A DNA stretch of 37,586 bases, taken from contig NZ_JAPSHJ010000011.1 in NCBI RefSeq assembly GCF_031179985.1, forward strand, positions 5,611 to 43,196, in the 5' to 3' direction. Below the pieces are notes generated by a model. That model was not told where the DNA came from. It worked only from the letters and a program-made list of their open reading frames with translations, and ran no database searches. This DNA comes from Arthrobacter sp. GTDB lineage: Bacteria; Actinomycetota; Actinomycetes; Actinomycetales; Micrococcaceae. Of the stretch, positions 16,000 to 27,172 are shown piece by piece (the stretch's first letter is position 1; each line of letters starts with the position of its first letter). A program made the position numbers and the translations under genes.

Positions 16000-16261
16000 A
16001 TGCGGGCGATTCAGGGAACTATGTTGACCCTCGGGCCCCCGGTACAGGTGGGGGGAACTCCTGGTCGCCTACGAGACCCTGTGCACACAGCTCTACGAGT
16101 ATTACGTTGTCCTCAGCTCGAACATGATCGAAGATCTTCGTCTTGCGGGACAAAGCCTGGCCGCCGCGGCAATGTATGCAGAAGTACTCCTTGAGAACAT
16201 TGCAGATGAACGGCGGAACCTTCGTCAGGGAGGGCCGGAACGGGCTAGGGAACCTCGATGA
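16000..16261 (+). pseudogene. Small gene with a frameshift in a run of six Gs
   Basis: ATG 16000 has AGAGGA (15986-15991) 8 nt upstream. The frame reads MRAIQGTMLTLGPPVQVG, then meets six Gs at 16050-16055. With five Gs it would continue as ELLVAYETLCTQLYEYYVVL, then SSNMIEDLRLAGQSLAAAAM and a charged end (ENIADERRNLRQGG), stopping at 16259-16261. That is about 86 residues of helix-rich, protein-like sequence. Without the shift it becomes Arg/Pro-rich nonsense to 16194. The strong ribosome site plus good downstream frame argue for a recent mutation, a phase-variable tract or a sequencing error. The 3' end overlaps the convergent VanB gene by 17 bp. No family was recognised. Confidence 0.55.
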
Positions 16262-17270
16262 CGATGCCCGGCAGGCCCTGTTCCGGGCCCTGAACTGCTC
16301 CGCCCACGGCTCCAACTGAAGCGACGCGGGAGACGCAGCAGCAGATTTTCTCGCCAGCTTTTTGCTGGCGATCACTGTAGAACACGTCCCGGTGGTCAAT
16401 GGCGCCCTCCAGCCGGAGGACCCGGACCTCACACAGCCCGCATTCGCCTTTCCGGCAGTCGAACATCATGTCCGCCCCCGCGTCCTCCAAGGCCTCCAGC
16501 ATGGAGCGGTCGGGACTGACGGTTGTTGAAATGCCCAGCCTCGGGATACGCACAGTGAATTCCTGCGGTGCATACCAGCCGCTGTTGCCGAAGGTCTCAA
16601 AGCGCAGATTGGCCGGGTCGAGCTGTTTCTCCAGCCAGCTTCGTCGGACCGAGTCCATAAGCCGGATGGGTCCGCACATATACAGCTCCGTGTCGGGAGC
16701 CAGTGCTGCCACCAGGGAAGCGACATCCAGGTTGGTGCCTTCGTCATTGATATGTGCAACCAACTGGCGGCCATGTAGCTGCTGCAGGTCATCGAGGTAG
16801 GCCATGGCTGCCCTGCTGCGCCCCGCATAGACCAGGGTGTAATCGGCATGAAGCTCGCGAAGGACCCGGGCCATCGCTGCAATAGCTGTGATGCCGATCC
16901 CGCCGGCCAGCAGCAGATAGCGTGGTGCGCCGATGCGGAGGGGAAAGTTCTGCAGCGGCTGCGTGACCTCCAGCGTGTCTCCCACTTGCAGCGCGTGCAT
17001 GGCTACCGATCCGCCGCGGGAGGAGGGGGCACGGAAGACGCTGACGGTGAGCCGGGCGCCGTCGTTCGCTGATTCCACCACTGAATAGGAGCGCTTGAGC
17101 GCTTCACCCTGAGTAGAGGAGGGCAAGTTCACCTTCACATCTATGTGGGAGCCGGGGTCCGCTCTCCGTGGGAGGTCCGGCCGCAGAACGATCCGTTTGA
17201 TGTGCTCGGTCACGGCAGTGGTTTCAATGACTGTTGCCTGCTGCCAAACTTCTATGTTCGTCGCTGCCAT
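16245..17270 (-). CDS. vanB: Vanillate O-demethylase reductase (PDR/VanB family)
   Basis: 341 residues. An N-terminal flavin-binding barrel with R60-S-Y-S is followed by the NAD-binding loop GGIGITAI (123-130) and MCGPIRLMD. A C-terminal plant-type [2Fe-2S] domain has Cys272, Cys277, Cys280 and Cys310. This order (flavin, NAD, ferredoxin) is that of phthalate-dioxygenase-type reductases. It passes electrons from NADH to the VanA oxygenase encoded 47 bp upstream. ATG 17270 is preceded by AAGGA at 8 nt. The ATG at 17279 overlaps that site, and the longer open frame lies inside vanA and was rejected. A Gly/Val-rich tail after the last Cys (about 30 residues) is longer than usual. Confidence 0.92.
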   Translation of the reverse strand: MAATNIEVWQQATVIETTAVTEHIKRIVLRPDLPRRADPGSHIDVKVNLPSSTQGEALKRSYSVVESANDGARLTVSVFRAPSSRGGSVAMHALQVGDTLEVTQPLQNFPLRIGAPRYLLLAGGIGITAIAAMARVLRELHADYTLVYAGRSRAAMAYLDDLQQLHGRQLVAHINDEGTNLDVASLVAALAPDTELYMCGPIRLMDSVRRSWLEKQLDPANLRFETFGNSGWYAPQEFTVRIPRLGISTTVSPDRSMLEALEDAGADMMFDCRKGECGLCEVRVLRLEGAIDHRDVFYSDRQQKAGEKICCCVSRVASVGAVGGAVQGPEQGLPGIVIEVP

Positions 17271-17317
17271 TGGCTGCATCCTTGACTGTGTTGATTCTGG
17301 CGGGGTACGGGGTGCTC

Positions 17318-18454
17318 TTACGCGAAGGGGACGAGGCGTCCCTCGGCTGCCAGTTGGCGTTCGATGAGGCGCCGGACCCACATGCCGCCCGCATCGATGT
17401 TCAGGTTGTAGAACTCGTAATCCGGGTTGGCGTCGATCGCAGCCTGCTGAGCCTCCAGCATGTCCTCGTCTTCCTTGAATACCCGCGATACCCCGTCCCG
17501 GAGCTGGGTGGTGATGAGCTGGCTCTCCAGCCGGTAGTTGCGCATAAATGCCCAGAAGTAGTGGCTGGTTTTGACGGTCTCCGGGGAGATGGTGTTCATG
17601 ACGTAACCGTTGACCCCTTGGCTGCGGTCGCCGTCGGGAGCGCCGGTGCCGGCTTTTGCCACGCCGACGTCGATGCAGATGGTGGAGGGGGATTCGAAAT
17701 GGATGATCTGCCAGCGGTCCACCTTTCCCTCGTAGCCCGGAAACTTGTCCCGGATGTTTTTGCGCCAGAAGGGTGGTGCGTCGATGTCGAGCATCCATCG
17801 GGTCACGGTGACGGTGTTGCCCTCGTGGGTCACCACAAAGTCGGACTCGCTGAGCTCCTCCTGCCCGATGCTGGAGCCATGGACGAATTCCTCATGCGTC
17901 AGGTCCATGAGGTTGTCCAGGACGAGCTGGAAGTTGCAGTTGACCGGGATGGTCAGGCCGTCGCCGGCCCACGCGGGGTCTGTCATCTGCCACATGTCCG
18001 GAATCAGCTCAGGATCGGCTTTCGTCGCGTCCCCAAGCCAGACCCAGACGTAGCGGTAACGCTCGACGACGGGGAAGGAGGGCACCGTGGCGCTGGGGTT
18101 GATGGTTTCCTGGGCGGGCATGGAGACGCAGCGGCCCGCGGAGTTGTAGATGATGCCGTGATACGGGCACTGAATCTGGTCGCCGGCAAGGGTCTTACCC
18201 AGTGAAAGCGGTGCCAGCCGGTGCCAACAGGCGTCGGCGAGGGCGACGGCCCTGCCGTCCTCCGCCCGGTACAGGGCCAGAGGCCGGTCGGCGATTCGCC
18301 GGGACATGGGTTTGCGGGTGACTTCGTAATCCCAAGCGGCCACGTACCAGGCGTTGAGGGGATAGCCGAGAACCTTGTTGGTGGTGCTGGACGCGTTGCT
18401 GGTGCGGGAGGTGGTCTGCACAGACGTGCTTTCTACGGCGGGGGCGATGCTCAC
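17318..18454 (-). CDS. vanA: Vanillate O-demethylase oxygenase subunit (Rieske)
   Basis: 378 residues. The Rieske [2Fe-2S] ligands are Cys76 and His78 (ACWHRLAP) and Cys96 and His99 (QCPYHGI). The mononuclear iron site is NLMDLTHEEFVHG, with His187 and His192 as ligands and Asp184 as bridge to the Rieske centre. The N-terminal LGYPLNAWYVAAWDYEV and overall length fit VanA. With VanB it demethylates vanillate to protocatechuate plus formaldehyde in the cytoplasm, a step in lignin-aromatic use. The start is GTG 18454, with GGAAGGAAG upstream. An additional Ser/Thr-rich N-terminal leader (residues 5-26) is unusual. Expression should be repressed by the divergent PadR-type regulator through two operator-like repeats. 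Confidence 0.92.
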   Translation of the reverse strand: MSIAPAVESTSVQTTSRTSNASSTTNKVLGYPLNAWYVAAWDYEVTRKPMSRRIADRPLALYRAEDGRAVALADACWHRLAPLSLGKTLAGDQIQCPYHGIIYNSAGRCVSMPAQETINPSATVPSFPVVERYRYVWVWLGDATKADPELIPDMWQMTDPAWAGDGLTIPVNCNFQLVLDNLMDLTHEEFVHGSSIGQEELSESDFVVTHEGNTVTVTRWMLDIDAPPFWRKNIRDKFPGYEGKVDRWQIIHFESPSTICIDVGVAKAGTGAPDGDRSQGVNGYVMNTISPETVKTSHYFWAFMRNYRLESQLITTQLRDGVSRVFKEDEDMLEAQQAAIDANPDYEFYNLNIDAGGMWVRRLIERQLAAEGRLVPFA

Positions 18455-18479
18455 AATGACTTCCTTCCAAACGAACCGG

Positions 18480-18501
18480 ACTATCTACATTGATAGATAG
18501 T
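18480..18501. promoter_or_regulatory. Operator-like inverted repeat O1 of the van locus
   Basis: ACTATCTA (18480-18487), then 6 nt, then TAGATAGT (18494-18501): a perfect 8-bp inverted repeat. It begins with the same GACTATCTA sequence as the second site 36 bp away. It lies just downstream of the predicted vanA transcription start, where repressor binding would block transcription. Confidence 0.7.
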
Positions 18502-18513
18502 GAGCTGCACCAC

Positions 18514-18542
18514 AGACTATCTATGGATATAGTCATTGGCAA
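18514..18542 (-). promoter_or_regulatory. vanA promoter with operator-like repeat O2
   Basis: On the minus strand TTGCCA (18542-18537) and TAGTCT (18519-18514) form -35 and -10 boxes 17 bp apart. The inverted repeat GACTAT-N8-ATAGTC (18515-18534) fills the spacer and overlaps the -10. On the plus strand TATAGT (18528-18533) is a candidate -10 for the regulator gene. A repressor bound here would shut vanA and could autoregulate. Confidence 0.65.
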
Positions 18543-18564
18543 CACCTATGCAAAGGAACCCACC

Positions 18565-19152
18565 GTGAGCCTCCGGTATGCCTTACTCGCGCTGCTGACT
18601 GTGGAGCCGATGACCGGGTATGACCTGTTCAAGCACTTCGAATCATCGGTGGGGTATGTCTGGCACGCTCCCGATTCGCAGATCTACCCGGAGTTGCGTC
18701 GGATGGAAAGCGACGGCCTGCTCGAAGGCAGGGAGGTTCCGTGGGGTCCGCGCGGTAAGAAGACTGAGTACCGGATCACCGACGAGGGAGTGAAGGCATT
18801 CCGGGCCTGGATGAACACGGATCTGGAGTACAGCAGGGAACGGGACCCGGCACACCTCAAGGCCGCGTACCTGGAGTGGGCGGACCCGGAGGCGGCTCGG
18901 AGCCAGATGCAGGCCCACATTACGCACTATCGGGCGCGGCTGGAGCAGTGGACGGAAAAAATCAGGGAAATCGACGGCGGCGCGAGTCCCATGCTGAATA
19001 AGCGCTTGTCCGGAATTGCACCCGAGGAGCACCTGAAAACGGTGGCTTTCAAGCGGTTCACCTACGAAGGCCTTATTGCCCGCGCGGAACACGAAATTGC
19101 CTGGGCCGAGCGGGGACTGGCCCTGATCTCCGAGCTCTACAGCACCCGCTGA
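18565..19152 (+). CDS. vanR: PadR-family regulator of the vanillate genes (VanR-type)
   Basis: 195 residues from GTG 18565, with AAAGGA 7 nt upstream. MSLRYALLALLTVEPMTGYD is the canonical PadR start, followed by the winged helix (HAPDSQIYPELRRMESDGLL) and a wing rich in basic residues (WGPRGKKTEYRITDEG). The C-terminal half is helical and charged, as in PadR subfamily 2 dimers (Vir_act_alpha_C-like). In Corynebacterium glutamicum vanABK is repressed by a PadR-type VanR and relieved by vanillate. The same arrangement here makes that role likely. An upstream in-frame ATG (18523) lies inside operator O2 and lacks a ribosome site. No vanK transporter gene is present in the window. Confidence 0.85.
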   Translation: MSLRYALLALLTVEPMTGYDLFKHFESSVGYVWHAPDSQIYPELRRMESDGLLEGREVPWGPRGKKTEYRITDEGVKAFRAWMNTDLEYSRERDPAHLKAAYLEWADPEAARSQMQAHITHYRARLEQWTEKIREIDGGASPMLNKRLSGIAPEEHLKTVAFKRFTYEGLIARAEHEIAWAERGLALISELYSTR

Positions 19153-19268: not shown

Positions 19269-20579
19269 GTGAAGGTACTCGTCATTGGCCCTGGTGGCCG
19301 CGAACACGCCATTGTCCGCTCCCTGCTTGCAGACCCCAACGTCTCGGAAGTCCACGCGGCTCCGGGCAACGCGGGCATCAGCAAGCTGGTTCCAACGCAT
19401 GCGATCGACGCCAATGATCCTGACGCCGTCGCTGCTTTGGCCACGCGCCTGACTGCCGACCTCGTGGTGGTCGGCCCCGAAGCGCCGCTGGCCGCCGGGG
19501 TGTCCGACGCCGTACGTGCCGCAGGCATTCCCGTGTTCGGCCCCAGCAAGGCCGCGGCCCAGCTGGAGGCGTCCAAGGCCTTTGCCAAGCAGGTCATGGC
19601 CGAGGCCGGCGTTCCGACAGCCATGGCTTTGGTTGCCGCCAACGCAGAGGAAGCCGAAGCCGCCCTTGATACGTTCGGCGCCCCCTATGTGGTGAAGGAC
19701 GACGGACTTGCTGCAGGCAAGGGAGTGGTGGTCACTCGCGACCGCAACGCGGCGCTCGCCCATGCTCAAAGTTGCTTCGACGCCGGTGGAACCGTGGTTA
19801 TCGAAGAGTTCCTGGACGGCCCGGAAGTTTCAGTCTTTGTCCTGTGCGACGGCCACAACACTGTGGCGCTTTCCCCGGCGCAGGACTTCAAGCGCATTTT
19901 CGACAACGACGAAGGCCCCAACACCGGTGGAATGGGAGCCTACACCCCCCTGGATTGGGCACCTGAAGGCCTGGTGCAGGAGGTCATCGACAGGGTGGCA
20001 CAGCCCACCGTCAACGAGATGGCCGCCCGGGGAACGCCCTTTGTTGGTGTCCTGTTCGTCGGTCTCGCCCTGACTTCCCGCGGCACGCGTGTTATCGAAT
20101 TCAACGTCCGCTTCGGCGATCCCGAAACGCAGGCCGTACTGGCCCGGTTGAAGACGCCTCTCGGGTCTCTCTTGCTCTCCGCCGCCAAGGGTGAACTGGA
20201 CAAGGCAGAAGAGCTGCGGTGGACCAAGGAAACCGCGGTGGCCGTCGTCGTGGCTTCTGAGAATTATCCCGACACCCCGCGCACCGGAGACCGTATCCGC
20301 GGACTTAAGAAGGTCGAGGAGCTCGAGGGCGTGCATGTCATCCACGCAGGGACCGCGCTCGACGATGACGGCAAGGTCATCTCCGCGGGCGGCCGGGTGC
20401 TCGCCGTCGTCGCGCTGGGAACGGACCTTGTGGAGGCGCGGGAACGCGCGTACGACGGCGTGGAGCTGGTTCAGCTGGAAGGCTCACAGTTCCGGACGGA
20501 TATCGGCCGCAAGGCTGCCCGCGGCGAGATTCGCGTAGCCGCTTCAGGGGTCCCGACAGCATCCAAGGCAAAGGCATGA
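19269..20579 (+). CDS. purD: Phosphoribosylamine-glycine ligase
   Basis: 436 residues. The GTG start gives MKVLVIGPGGREHAIVRSLL, the universal PurD N-terminus; longer in-frame starts (19179) add non-conserved residues. The ATP-grasp core is clear: PYVVKDDGLAAGKGVVV, VIEEFLDGPEVSVFVL, DEGPNTGGMGAYTP and VIEFNVRFGDPETQ, which carries the metal-binding Glu/Asn. It joins 5-phosphoribosylamine and glycine to give GAR, step two of purine synthesis. Full length. The stop overlaps purC by 4 nt (ATGA), so the two are coupled. The ribosome site (GGAG, 3 nt before the GTG) is close. A TAnnnT box (19255-19260) nearby leaves a leaderless transcript possible. Confidence 0.95.
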   Translation: MKVLVIGPGGREHAIVRSLLADPNVSEVHAAPGNAGISKLVPTHAIDANDPDAVAALATRLTADLVVVGPEAPLAAGVSDAVRAAGIPVFGPSKAAAQLEASKAFAKQVMAEAGVPTAMALVAANAEEAEAALDTFGAPYVVKDDGLAAGKGVVVTRDRNAALAHAQSCFDAGGTVVIEEFLDGPEVSVFVLCDGHNTVALSPAQDFKRIFDNDEGPNTGGMGAYTPLDWAPEGLVQEVIDRVAQPTVNEMAARGTPFVGVLFVGLALTSRGTRVIEFNVRFGDPETQAVLARLKTPLGSLLLSAAKGELDKAEELRWTKETAVAVVVASENYPDTPRTGDRIRGLKKVEELEGVHVIHAGTALDDDGKVISAGGRVLAVVALGTDLVEARERAYDGVELVQLEGSQFRTDIGRKAARGEIRVAASGVPTASKAKA

Positions 20580-21532
20580 GCATGGTGGATTTGAACGGGC
20601 CTGGAACGCAGGCCGGAGGGCTCCAGACTCAGGCCCTGCAGCTGCCGGGCTGGAAGCACGTGTACTCCGGAAAGGTTCGGGATCTGTACGTGCCTACGGA
20701 TGAAGGCATCAAGGACCAGCTCCACCAGGACTGCGTCCTGGTGGTGGCCAGCGACCGTATCAGCGCCTTCGACCACGTCCTTAGCAGCGAAATCCCGGAC
20801 AAGGGACGTATCCTTACGCAGCTGAGTCTCTGGTGGTTTGAGCAGCTTGACGTGGAGCATCACGTCCTCGAGTCCACTGTGGAAGGGGGCGTTCCCGCAG
20901 CCGTCGAGGGGCGGGCCATGATCTGCAAGAAACTGGACATGTTCCCGGTGGAATGCATCGCCCGCGGATACCTCACAGGTTCAGGTTTGGCCGAGTACAA
21001 GCAGTCCCGCACTGTTTGCAGCATCCCGCTGCCGGAGGGCCTCGTTGACGGTTCCCGCCTCGAAGAACCGATCTTCACGCCCTCTGCGAAGGCGGAGGTG
21101 GGGGAGCACGACGAGAACATCACTTATGACGCCGTGGTGGACATGGTGGGCGTGGATGTTGCCGAGCGCTTGCGTGAGCTCACCCTGAAAATCTACAGCC
21201 GGGCCGAAGAAGTGGCCCGGGGACGTGGCATCATCCTCGCCGACACGAAGGTGGAGTTCGGATTCGATGTGGTCACCGGAACCATTACCCTCGGGGACGA
21301 GGTGCTGACTCCTGACTCTTCGCGTTTTTGGGATGCCGCCACTTACGAACCCGGAAGGGCGCAGCCGTCCTTTGACAAGCAGTACGTGCGGGACTGGCTG
21401 ACGTCTCCGGAATCCGGCTGGGACAGGGCCTCGGACACACCGCCGCCCGCGCTTCCGGCCGAGGTGGTGGACCGCACGCGGGGCCGCTACGTGGAGGCTT
21501 ACGAGAAGCTGACGGGCCGGAAGTTCGTCTAA
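20576..21532 (+). CDS. purC: SAICAR synthetase
   Basis: 318 residues. HVYSGKVRDLYV is the ATP-binding loop, LVVASDRISAFDHVL, ECIARGYLTGSGLAEYK and IILADTKVEFGFD are the conserved SAICAR synthetase motifs, with DSSRFWD near the end. The length fits the single-domain actinobacterial/yeast-like form rather than the short E. coli form (about 237). It condenses CAIR with aspartate using ATP to give SAICAR, in the cytoplasm. Its ATG overlaps the purD stop, indicating coupled translation. A second ATG two codons later is also possible. Confidence 0.95.
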   Translation: MSMVDLNGPGTQAGGLQTQALQLPGWKHVYSGKVRDLYVPTDEGIKDQLHQDCVLVVASDRISAFDHVLSSEIPDKGRILTQLSLWWFEQLDVEHHVLESTVEGGVPAAVEGRAMICKKLDMFPVECIARGYLTGSGLAEYKQSRTVCSIPLPEGLVDGSRLEEPIFTPSAKAEVGEHDENITYDAVVDMVGVDVAERLRELTLKIYSRAEEVARGRGIILADTKVEFGFDVVTGTITLGDEVLTPDSSRFWDAATYEPGRAQPSFDKQYVRDWLTSPESGWDRASDTPPPALPAEVVDRTRGRYVEAYEKLTGRKFV

Positions 21533-21579: not shown

Positions 21580-22860
21580 TCAGCCTGCAGTGTCAACTGA
21601 ACCGCCGGATGCCGCAGCAGCGCGGCGTTCGGCGAGCTTGATTTCCAGGATGGCGTCCATGGCCTGCTGCAGCCGGTCCGAAGCTCCTGCTGAGCTGAAT
21701 TCTTTCCGCGCCTCTTCCAGATGCTCCAAAGCCTCTTCCGGTTCGCCCGCTGCCTTGAGTGACTTTCCCAGCAGGAGGGACACTTCGCCGGCAGTGTGCT
21801 TGCCCAGGGCCTTGCGTTCGGCGTGGATCTCGCGGAGCTTGTTGACGGCCGCCACGATATCGCCGGTGAGGTAGAGCCAGCGGGCCCGGATGAACGCAAC
21901 CTCGAGCTGGTCCGTCTTGTTTCCTCCCACAATAGAGAGCGCCAGTTCGGCACGCTCGATAGCGGATAAAGTCTCAGGCTCTACTATGCCGGAGGACAGG
22001 CGGACGGCCGCTGAGGCTTTGTTGAACCGTGCCCAAAGCTCGATATCGTTGGCCGGCGAGAGCAGCCTGGCGGCGCGTTCGTGGTGCTTAATGCCCTCCG
22101 GGTAGTCGTGGCGCATGAACGCCACGTTTCCGATCACCCAGGCCACCTCGCCGGCAAGCTGGGACATGGAGTTTTCGTCCGTTTGCTCGTTCATGAGCTG
22201 GCAGTATTTCCAGGCCTCCTCAAGCCTGCCGCTTTCGGCCAGGGCGCCGATCAGCGCGCGCATCGCACCGATGATCAACGTGGACCCCTGAGGCAGTTGC
22301 TCACAGAGCCTTACGGCTTCCTGCGCGTGCTCGACGGCGGCAGTGAGCTGGCCTTGGCCGTGGCATACTGCGGCGAGCATCTGCCGTGCCCTGACGCCGA
22401 GGCCTACCGACTCGGAGGCCATGGGGTGCTCCAAGAGGTGCTGGATGATTTTCTGGCAGTCAGCCAACTGCCCCTGCTTCATCAGGCATTCGGCCTGCAT
22501 GTAAGTCATGTTCCACCAGGCGCTGGTGTTCCGCCCTTCGAGGGCTATTTGTGCGGCGGTCGCAGCGTGGCTCGCGGCAAGCGGGTAGTCCCTCAGATCC
22601 CACGCCTGGCGGGCATACAAGCCGGCCAAAACGTACTCGGCGTCGCTGATGGACACCGGCTGGCTCCAGGCTTCGAGGGCTTTGGGGGCCATTTCCAGTC
22701 GCCTGGCCAGCTCTTCAATGACGTCTGCCGTAGGCTCACGCCGGCCGGTTTCCAGCAGGGAGATGTAACTGGGGGAGTAGAGGTCCTTCCCGAGTTCGGC
22801 TTGAGTCAGCCCCCGTTCGAGACGCTCCGCACGGAGCTTCTCGCCGAATCCGTTCCCCAC
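21580..22860 (-). CDS. HTH-TPR regulator, candidate RRNPP-like peptide receptor
   Basis: 426 residues from GTG 22860; AGGAGG lies 5 nt upstream, so the longer frame to 22941 was rejected. Residues 6-60 are an XRE-type helix-turn-helix (LRAERLERGLTQAELGKDLY, then SPSYISLLETGRREPTADVI). The rest is all-helical, with TPR-like pairs such as SAWWNMTYMQAECLMKQGQL, ALIGALAESGRLEEAWKY, VAFIRARWLYLTGDIVAAVN and LLLGKSLKAAGEPEEALEHL. There is no signal or membrane segment, so it is cytoplasmic. HTH plus C-terminal TPR repeats and length match NprR-like members of the RRNPP family (Rap, Rgg, NprR, PlcR, PrgX), which bind re-imported signalling peptides. The divergent neighbour encodes a secreted peptide with three copies of an octapeptide. 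Architecture is seen; the receptor role is inferred. Some HTH-TPR proteins have no peptide ligand. Confidence 0.85.
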   Translation of the reverse strand: MGNGFGEKLRAERLERGLTQAELGKDLYSPSYISLLETGRREPTADVIEELARRLEMAPKALEAWSQPVSISDAEYVLAGLYARQAWDLRDYPLAASHAATAAQIALEGRNTSAWWNMTYMQAECLMKQGQLADCQKIIQHLLEHPMASESVGLGVRARQMLAAVCHGQGQLTAAVEHAQEAVRLCEQLPQGSTLIIGAMRALIGALAESGRLEEAWKYCQLMNEQTDENSMSQLAGEVAWVIGNVAFMRHDYPEGIKHHERAARLLSPANDIELWARFNKASAAVRLSSGIVEPETLSAIERAELALSIVGGNKTDQLEVAFIRARWLYLTGDIVAAVNKLREIHAERKALGKHTAGEVSLLLGKSLKAAGEPEEALEHLEEARKEFSSAGASDRLQQAMDAILEIKLAERRAAAASGGSVDTAG

Positions 22861-22898: not shown

Positions 22899-22938
22899 TT
22901 GACAGCCTCTGTGGAAAACATTTTACAATGTATGTCAA
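22899..22938 (+). promoter_or_regulatory. Candidate peptide-gene promoter with overlapping palindrome
   Basis: TTGACA (22899-22904) and TACAAT (22924-22929) are near-consensus boxes, but 19 bp apart. ACATTTTACAATGT (22918-22931), with 5-bp perfect arms, overlaps the -10 and is a plausible site for the divergent HTH regulator. TGTCAA (22933-22938) repeats the -35 sequence on the other strand. The overlong spacer suggests that the promoter needs an activator or remodelling. Confidence 0.55.
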
Positions 22939-22989
22939 CAAGCGCCGCGCAAACTTTGTAACGAATCCAACTCGTATTGAGGAACATCC

Positions 22990-23199
22990 ATGTTAAAGAA
23001 GATTGCTGCTTCCGTTGCCATGGCCGGGGCAGTGGCTTTCGCGTTTGCTGCTCCAGCCGTCGTGTCCGCCGCCCCCGTTGAGTCCTCGACTGTAGCGATC
23101 GGCAACTGGCCGGACCCGATGAGCGCACCCCAGGCAATCGGTAACTGGCCTGACCCCATGTTCCTTCCTATGATCGGCAACTGGCCTGATCCAATGTAA
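22990..23199 (+). CDS. Secreted peptide precursor with three IGNWPDPM repeats
   Basis: 69 residues from ATG 22990, with GAGGA 6 nt upstream. Residues 1-27 are a Sec signal peptide: a Lys-Lys n-region, an Ala/Val-rich core and a likely cut after V-S-A at 27. A short Ser/Val/Glu linker (28-35) leads to three copies of IGNWPDPM at 37-44, 50-57 and 62-69, separated by SAPQA and FLPM. The last copy ends exactly at the stop codon. The mature part is tiny and nearly all repeat, which suggests a multi-copy pheromone precursor processed outside the cell rather than an enzyme or structural protein. The divergent HTH-TPR regulator is the natural candidate receptor. No peptide importer is encoded nearby; a general Opp system would be needed. 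Alternatives are a small antimicrobial or surface peptide. Confidence 0.85.
   Translation: MLKKIAASVAMAGAVAFAFAAPAVVSAAPVESSTVAIGNWPDPMSAPQAIGNWPDPMFLPMIGNWPDPM
23095..23196 (+). repeat. Three 27-bp coding repeats
   Basis: Units at 23095-23121, 23134-23160 and 23170-23196 each encode (A/M)IGNWPDPM. Within the eight shared codons the units differ only at third positions (GGC/GGT, CCG/CCT, GAC/GAT, CCG/CCC/CCA). That shows old duplication with selection on the peptide. Confidence 0.9.
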
Positions 23200-23367: not shown

Positions 23368-23444
<77 letters not shown>

Positions 23445-23534: not shown

Positions 23535-25367
23535 TCAAACCAGCGAGTCCTTCCACGCTCCATGGAGCCGGGCGAAGCGCCCGCCGCCACTGATCAGTTC
23601 CTCGGGACTGCCGTCTTCCACCACTCGGCCGTCGTGGACCACCAGGACGCGATCGGCCGTCTCCACGGTGGAGAGGCGGTGCGCGATGATCAGCGCAGTG
23701 CGGCCGGACTCCTTGCCTGCGACCCCTTCCAGAAGCCCTGCCAGGCCCTGCTGGACCAACCGCTCTGAGGGGACATCCAGCGAAGATGTTGCCTCATCGA
23801 GGATCAGGACAGCCGGCTTCGCCAGGAAAGCGCGGGCAAAGCTGATGAGCTGGCGCTGGCCGGACGACACCCGGCCGCCCCGCTTGTTGACGTCGGTGTC
23901 GTATCCCTCGGGCAGTTCCATGATGAACTCGTGGGCGCCCACAGCCTTGGCTGCTTCCTCAATTTCAGCCCGCGTGGCCTCAGGGCGGCCCAACGCGATG
24001 TTGTCCGCCACGGAGCCGCTGAACAGGAAGGCTTCCTGGGTCACCATCACAACGTTCCTGCGAAGATCCGTGGTGCTCAGGTCGCGGAGGTCCACTCCGT
24101 CCAGAGTGAGCGTTCCGGAGGATACATCGTAAAACCTGGCGATCAGCTTGGCGAAGGTCGATTTACCTGCACCGGTCTGGCCTACCAGAGCCACAGTTTG
24201 CCCGGCCGGGATGTGGAGATCCAGTTTGGGAATGATGACCGGGCCGTCGCCGTACCGGAATTCCACTCCCTTGAAGTCGATAGTGCCGCGTGCGTCCTTG
24301 AGCGGTACAGGGTTCTTGGGTGGCCTGACCGTGGGGACTTCCTCCAGGAGACCCGAGACTTTTTCGAGGGCTGCCTGTGCACTTTGGAAGGAGTTGTAGA
24401 ACATGGCCATCTGATCCACTGGCTGGAAGAAGCGCTTGGCGGACAGCATCAAGGCCAGGAGGACCCCCACCTCGAGATCGCCGCCCAGAACGCGGAATCC
24501 GCCGATGAGCAGGACCACTGCCACGCAGACGTTGCCGATCAGCACCAGGCCCGGCTGGAAAATGCCGTTGAGGTTGATGGAGCGCACGGTGACTTTGCGG
24601 TAGTTCTCAGAGAGGTCGCTGTACCGCTGGGCGTTCTCCCGTTCCTTTCGGAAGGCCTTGACGGCCCGGATCCCCGTCATGGATTCCACAAAGTGAACGA
24701 TCAGCCTCGCCGACACAACCCGGGATTCCCGGAAGACAATCTGGGAGTGCTTCTGGTACCAGCGGGACAGGAAGTACATCGGCACGCCTGCACCCAGCAG
24801 GATCAGGCCGCTTCGCCAGTCGAGGGCGAACACCGTGACGGCGGTGAACACCATGAACAGCATTCCTGACGCCAGGGAGCTCACGCCGGAATCAAGGAGT
24901 TCACGGAGTGCTTCCAGATCAGAAGTCTGCCGGGCAATGATGCGGCCGGAGGTGTACTTTTCATGGAACTCGAGGCTGAGCCGCTGGGTGTGCCGAAACA
25001 CCCTGAGCCGCAGGTCAAGGAGCATCGCCTGGCTGAGTTTCGCCGTCGACGTGACATAGAGAGCGGTGAGGGCCGCCGTCGTAATCGCAGCCGCCAGATA
25101 GGCGACGCCGGTCAGTATCAGGGGGAGATCGTCCCCGGCACGCAAAGCCGGGAGGGCATGGTCGATGCCGAAAGCGATCAGGACCGGCCCCGAGACCCTT
25201 GCGAGCTGGGACAGGATTACGGTGGCGAGGGTGAGCCAGAACCGGAGCCGGACCGGACGGATGAGGGACCCGAGCAGCGCAAGAGACCGCCGTCGGACGG
25301 TCCTGCTGTCGCTCTTGCTGAGGAAGGCGTTGTCCTCGTTGGCTGTACCGAACGTGGTGGTGGTCAT
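23535..25367 (-). CDS. ABC exporter half-transporter, consensus-ATPase subunit
   Basis: 610 residues: an N-terminal six-helix ABC exporter membrane domain (about 40-330) and an ATPase domain. Walker A is GQTGAGKST (396-404), Q-loop Gln444, and Walker [10 protein letters not shown] with catalytic Glu525; the H-loop is IIAHRLST. The signature is VSSGQ (500-504) instead of LSGGQ. The gene overlaps its partner by 4 nt. The partner has an intact LSGGQ but an altered Walker B and Q-loop, so the two form a heterodimer with one active and one degenerate ATP site, like TM287/288 or BmrCD. It exports drugs, lipids or peptides across the cytoplasmic membrane; the substrate is unknown. A role in exporting the nearby peptide is not indicated, since that precursor has a Sec signal. 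Confidence 0.93.
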
Positions 25368-27172
25368 CGGGACATCTCCTCGGCCTCGGCGTCGAGTTCC
25401 GACAGCTCGGAATCGAGGTCCCGGGGTTCAGCGACCAGGTTCGCGATCACGTACCGGTAATGGTCGTTGGCTGCGAGCAGTTCAGTATGGGTTCCGACGG
25501 CGGTGATGCGGCCGTTCTCCAGCAAAGCCACCCGGTCCGCCAGCGCGACAGTGGACGGGCGGTGCGCAACGATCAGCGTCGTTGTATCGGCGAGGACTTT
25601 CCGGAGCCTCGCTTCCACGAGCTCTTCAGTGTGGACGTCCAGGGCGGACAACGGGTCATCGAGCACCAGGACTTTGGGCTTGGCCGCGATTGCCCGGGCC
25701 AGGGCGATGCGCTGGCGCTGGCCGCCGGACAGGCTGAGCCCTTCCTCGCCGATCAGCGTATCCACGCCATCGGGAAGGGAGTACGCGAAGTGGGCCTGGG
25801 CGACGTCCAGCGACTCGTGGAGGAGTTCCTCGGTCCGCTCCGAGGCTCCAAGCAGTACGTTGTCCCGGACAGAGCTGGAGAACAAAGTGGTGTCCTCGAA
25901 GGCCATGCCTACTATGCGCCGGAGTTCTTCGACGTCGAAATCGCGCAGATCAACGCCGTCGATGGTGATGGAGCCGTCCGTAACGTCGTAGAGGCGTGGC
26001 ACCAGCTGAAGCATGGCACTCTTCCCGCTGCCGGTGATACCCACCAATGCCAGGGTCTCGCCCGGCCTGACGTCCAGGGAGATGCCCCGAAGGATGGGAT
26101 GGTCCGACGCATCCTCAAAGGCGAAGGAAGCGTTGTTGAAACTCAGTGCGCCCTTTACCTCCTGCGGCTTCCGCTGCGTCTCCGGGGTGGTGATGGTGTT
26201 GGCCGAATCCATGACTTCGAAATGCCGGTCCACAGCGGTCTTAGCGGTAAGGGCCATGGCAAGGAGCATCCCTGAGAACTCCACAGGCGCCGCGACCACT
26301 GCCGCGGTGGCAAAGAATGCCACCAGGGCACCGATGCTCAGCTCGCCGCTTGCCGCCAGCATTACCCCGACCACCAGCCCGGCGCCAAGGGCAAGTTCGG
26401 GGAGGAGCGTGACCACCATGGTGAAGGTGGCCTGGTGCTTGGCCTTAGCGATTTCGGTCTGCCGCAGCACCTCAGCCTGCTCATTGAAGTTCTCCAGCGC
26501 TTCCCGGCTCCTGCCAAAGGCCTTCAGGACGCGAATGCCGTGCACCGACTCCTCCACCGTTGTGGCGAGGTCCCCGGCCTGGTCCTGACTTTGCCGGGTG
26601 ACCTTGCTGAAGCTCGTGCGGAACCGGAAGCCATAAATCATGATGGGCAGGGCGGCACAGAGGAAGATCAGCGCCAACTGCCAGCTCATGGTAAACATCA
26701 CGACGACGCCGATCACCACGGTCAGGGTGGTCACCACCAGCATGATGGCGCCGAAGGCCATCCAGCGGCGGAGGAAGTTCAGGTCCGTCATGGCGCGGGA
26801 GAGCAACTGTCCGGAACCCCAGCGGTCGTGGAAGGCAACAGGGAGGTCCTGCAGGTGGTGGTAGAGCGAGATTCGCATCCGGGTTTCCACTGTGGTGGCG
26901 GGGTTGATGACGAACTGCCGGCGCAGGGCAACGAGTCCGGCCTCGGCGATACCGAGCACAAGTATGGTCAGCGAGGCCATCAGCACGGACTCAGTGGCTC
27001 CGCCGGGCTGGAGCGATTCATTGACCAGCACCCGCAGTACTTGCGGAATGGCCAAAGCCACGACGCTGGCCAAAAGCGCACAAAGAAGCCCCATAAAAAG
27101 CCTCGGCAGGATGGGCTTCATATGGGGATAGAGACGGCTGATGGATTGGAAGAATGAGGTCTGCTTGGTCAT
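25364..27172 (-). CDS. ABC exporter half-transporter, degenerate-site subunit
   Basis: 602 residues: six membrane helices (about 25-310) and an ATPase domain. Walker A is GITGSGKSA (378-386) and the signature LSGGQ (481-485) is canonical. Walker B ends VLVLDD (501-506), so Asp506 replaces the catalytic Glu. The Q-loop reads [10 protein letters not shown], with Glu where Gln is expected. LIVAHRPST keeps the H-loop His. These changes put the inactive ATP site on this subunit and complement the altered signature of the partner. First gene of the pair; its stop overlaps the start of the partner (TCAT on the plus strand), so translation is coupled. Substrate unknown. Confidence 0.93.

Follow-up and report, generated by a model that had tools for sequence, protein, structure and literature searches.

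A precursor of repeated Trp-Pro octapeptides and its divergent XRE-TPR regulator form a candidate peptide-signalling cassette in Arthrobacter and related genera

We analysed a stretch of 37,586 nucleotides from an Arthrobacter sp. genome (assembly GCF_031179985.1, contig NZ_JAPSHJ010000011.1, positions 5,611 to 43,196; hereafter the window). It carries a small gene encoding three copies of the octapeptide IGNWPDPM and, on the other strand, a gene for a predicted receptor of the XRE type with tetratricopeptide repeats (TPR). The two genes are divergent, with an intergenic region of 129 bp between them, and the features of this cassette are as follows (positions in the window; ORF, open reading frame).

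21580..22860, minus strand: XRE-TPR regulator, predicted receptor, 426 residues, GTG start, ribosome site GAGGAGG (ORF, domain matches, model)
22899..22938, no strand assigned: inverted repeat TTGACA-N28-TGTCAA over the shared promoter, predicted operator (conservation, genome pattern counts)
22924..22929, plus strand: TACAAT, possible -10 box, 19 nt after TTGACA (conserved TTTACAAT block)
22979..22983, plus strand: ribosome site GAGGA of the precursor, 6 bases 5' of the ATG (sequence)
22990..23199, plus strand: precursor gene, 69 codons plus stop, ATG start, three IGNWPDPM units (ORF list, translation)
22990..23070, plus strand: predicted Sec signal peptide, residues 1-27 (translation, judged by eye)
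23098..23121, plus strand: unit 1, IGNWPDPM (translation)
23137..23160, plus strand: unit 2, IGNWPDPM (translation)
23173..23196, plus strand: unit 3, IGNWPDPM, ending at the stop codon (translation)

Residues 1-27 of the precursor show the features of a Sec signal (KK, a hydrophobic run and VSA-A), and its relatives share the MxKK and hydrophobic start with the window gene. The DNA of the units reads ATC GGC AAC TGG CCG GAC CCG ATG for unit 1, ATC GGT AAC TGG CCT GAC CCC ATG for unit 2 and ATC GGC AAC TGG CCT GAT CCA ATG for unit 3, and a codon by codon comparison of the three showed that all differences are synonymous. The first-pass annotation of this DNA had described a 69-codon frame with a ribosome site, a signal peptide followed by three IGNWPDPM copies, the last at the stop codon (at 23199), and repeats differing only synonymously. 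These points were confirmed, the Sec signal by eye only. It had also called the octapeptide neutral, which was in error, as Asp and the free ends give a charge of about -1.

A search of a protein collection with the precursor returned 199 homologues at E up to 10 and, given these, the ORF is real, far beyond chance. Where the best 120 of the 199 matches bore a genus name, it was Arthrobacter, Pseudarthrobacter, Paenarthrobacter or Sinomonas, besides one Streptococcus pneumoniae label. The latter (P0087, on a contig of 352 bases) is a member of the Micrococcaceae precursor family and probably a contaminant record. Of 295 genomes of the family, 61 contained the GNWPDP pattern, and 80 loci were retained from 135 confirmed GNWPDP loci as a first locus set. 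Our main sample of 111 loci comprised the window together with L005-L114, and a secretory precursor was found in 100 of them, representing 98 distinct DNAs. The 11 loci left out of this count (L005, L007, L011, L018, L025, L029, L030, L107, L108, L110 and L113) are leaderless, chance or unrelated places. Among the 98 distinct precursors, one, two, three, four, five and six GNWPD units occur in 1, 27, 37, 28, 4 and 1 cases, respectively; the last unit reaches the stop codon in 87, and a tail of 4-15 residues follows it in 11.

Selection on the units was assessed in 385 within-gene repeat pairs, with the alignment anchored on the Trp alone and all other positions free to vary. The eight unit codons showed 897 synonymous and 123 nonsynonymous differences. 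For the nine spacer codons beside them, whose columns are only roughly homologous since spacer lengths vary, the counts were 356 and 1697, respectively. Because this contrast is large, the entity that is kept is the peptide, and not the DNA or RNA, which supports the earlier proposal that selection acts on the peptide itself.

The regulator matched HTH_31, HTH_3 (both helix-turn-helix, HTH) and TPR_12, each above cut-off. Its structural model predicts a TPR superhelix of about eight helical hairpins after residue 70, and Rap with CSF and NprR were among the structures matching this model. Across 24 regulators facing differing peptides, Asn117, Asn245 and Asn280 are invariant, as are Trp241 and Trp276. 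A divergent regulator lies no more than 450 nt away from all 100 precursors, window included. The link between the repeats and an HTH-TPR gene, anticipated in the first-pass annotation, thus holds for the window and for all 99 related loci, of which 76 and 23 come from two genome sets that may share strains. Outside the window, the regulators at precursor loci are 65-97% identical to that of the window. At L043 the regulator runs off the contig, and at L068 (4646-5871) its frame is broken beside an intact precursor, either through an error or through a real loss. Relatives of the regulator, HTH-less ones included, were present at E 1e-30 in 139 of the 295 family genomes; at E 1e-40 there were none in 229 genomes outside the family (from an order sample of 248, the 229 being taken as outside from the order of listing). 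A 359-residue frame elsewhere in the same genome (L181 5406-6422; G000:C1:37405-38421) is 40% identical to the TPR part of the regulator (residues 63-401). It apparently lacks the HTH, similar frames occur in other family genomes, and downstream of it lies what we take to be a GGDEF-like gene.

The cassette occupies a conserved chromosomal slot, with the following flanks in the window.

20576..21532, plus strand: purC, as we take it to be
23368..23444, minus strand: tRNA-Pro(CGG) (locus scans)
23535..25367, minus strand: presumed ABC (ATP-binding cassette) transporter half
25364..27172, minus strand: presumed second ABC transporter half

The arrangement of purD-purC, regulator, precursor and ABC pair is complete in 67 of the 80 loci of the first set, and in 8 more of the 80 the regulator is accompanied by purC and purD, with either a single ABC half or none. 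The tRNA-Pro was found in all six loci scanned of the first set and in 5 of 12 of the second. We found no evidence tying the ABC half at 23535..25367 to peptide handling. Elsewhere in the window, positions 16245-19152 presumably encode an aromatic-ring demethylase pair (Rieske oxygenase and reductase) beside a PadR-like regulator.

We fetched 56 further regulator loci of the same family, at 36-60% identity, and 15 of these diverged regulators face a signal-peptide precursor with a changed xWP repeat. The repeats are VGIWPNS in two copies (L145), VGNWPDAV in five and four (L146 and L147), VGNWPDAS or AA in six (L148), PGNWPD in three (L149), TGNWPN in four (L150), PGIWPD in three (L151), VWIWPD in two (L152), VGEWPH in two (L160), VG[DN]WPH in six to eight (L161, L162, L219), VGNWPAT and kin in seven (L176), and VGNWPDRFYS and kin in five and eight (L220 and L221). 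Eleven of the 15 loci adjoin purD-purC, and at L149 an ABC half and the tRNA-Pro mark the slot; because 12 of the 15 are in the same slot, their regulators are best read as orthologues with a drifted peptide. Since regulators of 36-60% identity, mostly in this slot, face altered motifs (VGIWPNS, VGNWPDAV, VGDWPHAT and others), the comparison indicates that receptor and peptide diverge together. Residue 285 of the regulator is Trp wherever the known peptide is xIWP, on two separate branches, and elsewhere mostly Ala or Ser. A profile from 13 diverged precursors matched 8 proteins, one of them labelled Paeniglutamicibacter antarcticus. At L177 the divergent place is taken by a hydrophobic ORF containing NDWPIS, a doubtful precursor candidate.

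The same core is also found in other packaging. Short ORFs with the GNWPDP core and no signal peptide, 11 to about 70 residues long and mostly with a good ribosome site, occur elsewhere in the precursor genomes. Examples are MSSIGNWPDPM (L190), MNRIGNWPDPM (L196, no ribosome site seen), leaderless ORFs with two to four copies (L194, L108, L113) and, in the genome of the window, a 46-residue leaderless ORF ending VGNWPDPLAPTD (L182, L025). Of the 10 genes translated that lie upstream of such ORFs on the same strand, 9 encode an Ala/Pro-rich protein that looks secreted and ends [FV]DPGS[ST]P[DG]; this protein could be another precursor or belong to the cell surface (L182 at ~7110 in the window's genome, L107, L108, L194, L195, L200 and L187-L189; the exception is L190). 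A third type, at L191 1876 and L193 3046, has a signal-like start and a single C-terminal IGNWPDPM, and the regulator was not recognised among the larger ORFs of the stretches fetched around these two. Rfam gave no leader RNA match at gathering scores for five leaderless or third-type loci. A GNWPDP match was present in 18 genomes outside the three precursor-carrying genera, and no mini-gene ending in the motif was seen at the loci opened for five of them (L029, L030, L202, L203, L204).

When 68 regulators were placed on a tree, 27 rows bore the label 'adjacent secretory precursor', which required 6 changes, as compared to 21.5 in shuffles; none of 500 shuffles needed as few, and near-copies favour such clustering. 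In genus g24, 18 regulators have no neighbouring precursor, and two earlier-branching lineages have one. Searches with a g24 precursor, and then with a better match, detected unlinked repeat precursors of 4-19 copies in 6 of these 18 genomes: LWIWP[NF] in seven copies (G221, between what we take to be glnE and solute-binding protein genes), PWIWP[NH] in eight (G270), QWIWPYS in six, five and four (G182, G096 and G277) and PWIWPYS in 19 (G076). Two other genera have leaderless mini-genes at the divergent place. Those at L163 and L215 end IGDWPHA[AD]. In genus g32, leaderless ORFs of 19-23 residues ending VG[DN]WPD occupy this place in 10 of 20 loci, and the remaining 10 have no such mini-gene there. 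The g32 pattern, which was chosen after seeing the ORFs, occurred in none of 4000 resampled regions and a looser pattern in one of 4000.

The control DNA was compared at several scales. Among 83 distinct close orthologues, an intergenic block with TTGACA, CTGTGGA, ATTTTAC and TGTCAA is shared. Across the family, the exact TTGACA-N28-TGTCAA is present in 9 of 22 intergenic regions examined, spanning seven motif types (GNWPDPM, GNWPDPS or x, GIWPNS, PGNWPD, TGNWPN, PGIWPD and WIWPD). It is degenerate by eye in L146, L148, L160 and L161, and absent in L163, L215, L176, L220, L222, L223, L153, L157 and L207, among which some carry different inverted repeats. A sigma-70 consensus scan of the region, limited to 16-18 nt spacing, returned no promoter. 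The exact repeat has one site in 24 of 25 genomes of the genus and two in the 25th, and the reversed-pattern control gave 0. With as many as 3 mismatches allowed, the 30-base intergenic block matched nowhere else in the genome, and the inverted repeat was not found at unlinked precursors. Given an exact site once per genome and unlinked precursors without one, no strong target was seen besides the promoter of the cassette itself. With one mismatch allowed, six further sites were found in the window's genome, as against three for the reversed pattern; we did not accept these as regulator targets because they lack the TTTACAAT block.

We interpret the two genes, by analogy and with a probability of roughly 0.7, as a cassette of a peptide pheromone and its intracellular XRE-TPR receptor, working like the RRNPP systems of Bacillota. 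The sequences show the genes, the repeats, selection on the peptide, the linkage, the parallel divergence and the conserved inverted repeat, whereas the cycle described next is inferred. The precursor would be exported via its predicted Sec signal, and signal peptidase together with other proteases would release the Trp-Pro octapeptide, or a version of it that is a little shorter. Return of the peptide to the cytosol would be through an oligopeptide permease; seven SBP_bac_5 binding proteins are encoded in the window's genome. There it may bind the concave face of the TPR superhelix, the predicted site of the invariant Asn117, Asn245, Asn280, Trp241 and Trp276. Both arms of TTGACA-N28-TGTCAA, an inverted repeat overlapping the probable -35 box and the start region of the precursor promoter, would be occupied by a receptor dimer that represses this promoter, so that release of the receptor from the operator by the ligand would result in autoinduction.

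Several counts weigh against this interpretation. As many as 41 of the 68 sampled regulators have no adjacent secretory precursor, and with a leaderless or unlinked candidate available for 10 of these, 31 of the 68 are still without a known peptide. Moreover, no exact operator was seen elsewhere in the window's genome. A regulator kept without the ORF had been named in the first-pass annotation as an outcome that would refute the pheromone; it is seen in part, in the same 41, with the 10 having other candidate precursors.

It is unlikely that the peptide is instead an output, secreted to act on rivals or on the cell surface, with the dedicated regulator sensing something else. The single exact operator at the precursor promoter itself and the dose given by multi-copy precursors would suit such a role. 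However, leaderless mini-genes with the same core and regulator lineage would not export an effector by Sec, residue 285 of the regulator tracks the peptide motif, and no immunity gene was recognised beside the cassette, albeit without a systematic search. A somewhat smaller chance attaches to a purely intracellular role, in which the peptide stays in the producing cell as a cytosolic ligand reporting that its own gene is expressed and no step between cells takes place. This would fit the genomes in which leaderless GNWPDP ORFs accompany the secretory gene, and the two other genera whose receptor has a leaderless mini-gene next to it, but the secretory precursors retain their KK and hydrophobic start, and ABC transporters can export leaderless precursors such as the streptococcal SHP. 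A translational device, in which a nearby gene is controlled by nascent-chain arrest or a leader peptide through the C-terminal WPDPM that precedes the stop, is very improbable: the frequent placement of a unit at the stop (87 of 98) and mini-ORFs of 11 residues would fit it, but not up to 19 tandem copies, units within the chain and a signal-like start, nor the tRNA and ABC genes downstream of the precursor, which are convergent and not co-directional.

If the pheromone-receptor interpretation is true, the coevolving pair would extend cytosolic TPR peptide sensing to common soil Actinobacteria, another phylum. It would also offer defined synthetic ligands, natural specificity swaps (the motif dialects and residue 285) and natural packaging swaps (secreted, leaderless and unlinked), useful for studying the evolution of signals and receptors. 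More tentatively, and at somewhat less than even odds, we propose that a single receptor lineage is served by a Trp-Pro core packed interchangeably in Sec polyproteins of 1-19 copies, leaderless mini-genes (11-32 residues) and unlinked loci, some in the same cell, with cytosolic copies tripping the switch from inside, A/S285W accompanying N-to-I before the Trp, and genus-specific dialects, as the first such language in Actinomycetota. Were this so, other operons could use cytosolic copies to bypass export and import.

The first-pass annotation had likened the precursor to yeast alpha-factor, whose secretory precursor repeats one short peptide in tandem. The tandem copies in a secretory precursor stand, but in 120 relatives that have at least two units KR, RR or RK never stands between units, KK doing so in 28, and the predicted receptor is cytosolic and not in the membrane, so that the parallel is loose. 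Streptococcal SHP and ComS are made as leaderless precursors, about 20 residues long, in which the C-terminal end is the active one; the VG[DN]WPD mini-genes resemble them in being leaderless with a C-terminal core, but differ in sequence and phylum. The first-pass annotation also knew of no described actinobacterial signal of this sequence, and our literature search agrees: GNWPDP, NWPDPM and IGNWPDP returned nothing, and no actinobacterial receptor pair of such kind appeared in the titles and abstracts found, preprints and most subscription papers lying outside the search. The sole match to WPDPM was an equine paper. In its accessible part, a review of actinobacterial quorum sensing cites Arthrobacter for LuxR-type domains only (PMC4748050).

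The closest functional likeness is to RRNPP systems. Like other RRNPP receptors, from which Rap differs in lacking the HTH, the window regulator has an N-terminal HTH and a predicted C-terminal TPR superhelix. Cytosolic TPR peptide sensing has been presented as a trait of Bacillota. According to a 2023 survey, the signals of Actinomycetota are typically small molecules, and its criteria for RRNPP systems are two adjacent genes, one for a TPR receptor of 250-500 residues and one for a propeptide of 10-100 residues that carries a secretion signal (PMC10075063). The regulator adjoins all 100 precursors, whose secretion is predicted from a signal judged by eye; the peptide is short and C-terminal, and the invariant Asn residues lie, in the model, in helices of the presumed groove. 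The cassette differs in its host, Micrococcaceae and not Bacillota, in its mostly 2-4 and up to 19 near-identical copies with a Trp-Pro core, and in the leaderless and unlinked variants for one receptor lineage. PlcR matches the regulator over residues 5-57 only, no model recognised as RRNPP-specific was among its Pfam, NCBIfam and PHROG matches, and PADLOC and PHROGs gave almost only HTH matches. Because the kinship found by sequence ends with the HTH, we liken the cassette to RRNPP systems in its presumed working and do not assign it to them.

Among phage systems, a report on Phr3T and Phr105 of Bacillus phages describes tandem propeptides whose pheromone is freed by extracellular proteases (PMC11343458). 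As described there, these share with the cassette more than one pheromone copy per secreted propeptide, but have an internal and a C-terminal copy, whereas the cassette commonly has 2-4 copies with variable spacers in another phylum. The AimR-AimP arbitrium system (PMC6458997) is a phage lysogeny switch with a hexapeptide, whereas the cassette is chromosomal, purC-linked and built of repeated units. Set beside these systems, the cassette would be a little-known kind of peptide language for its bacterial group.
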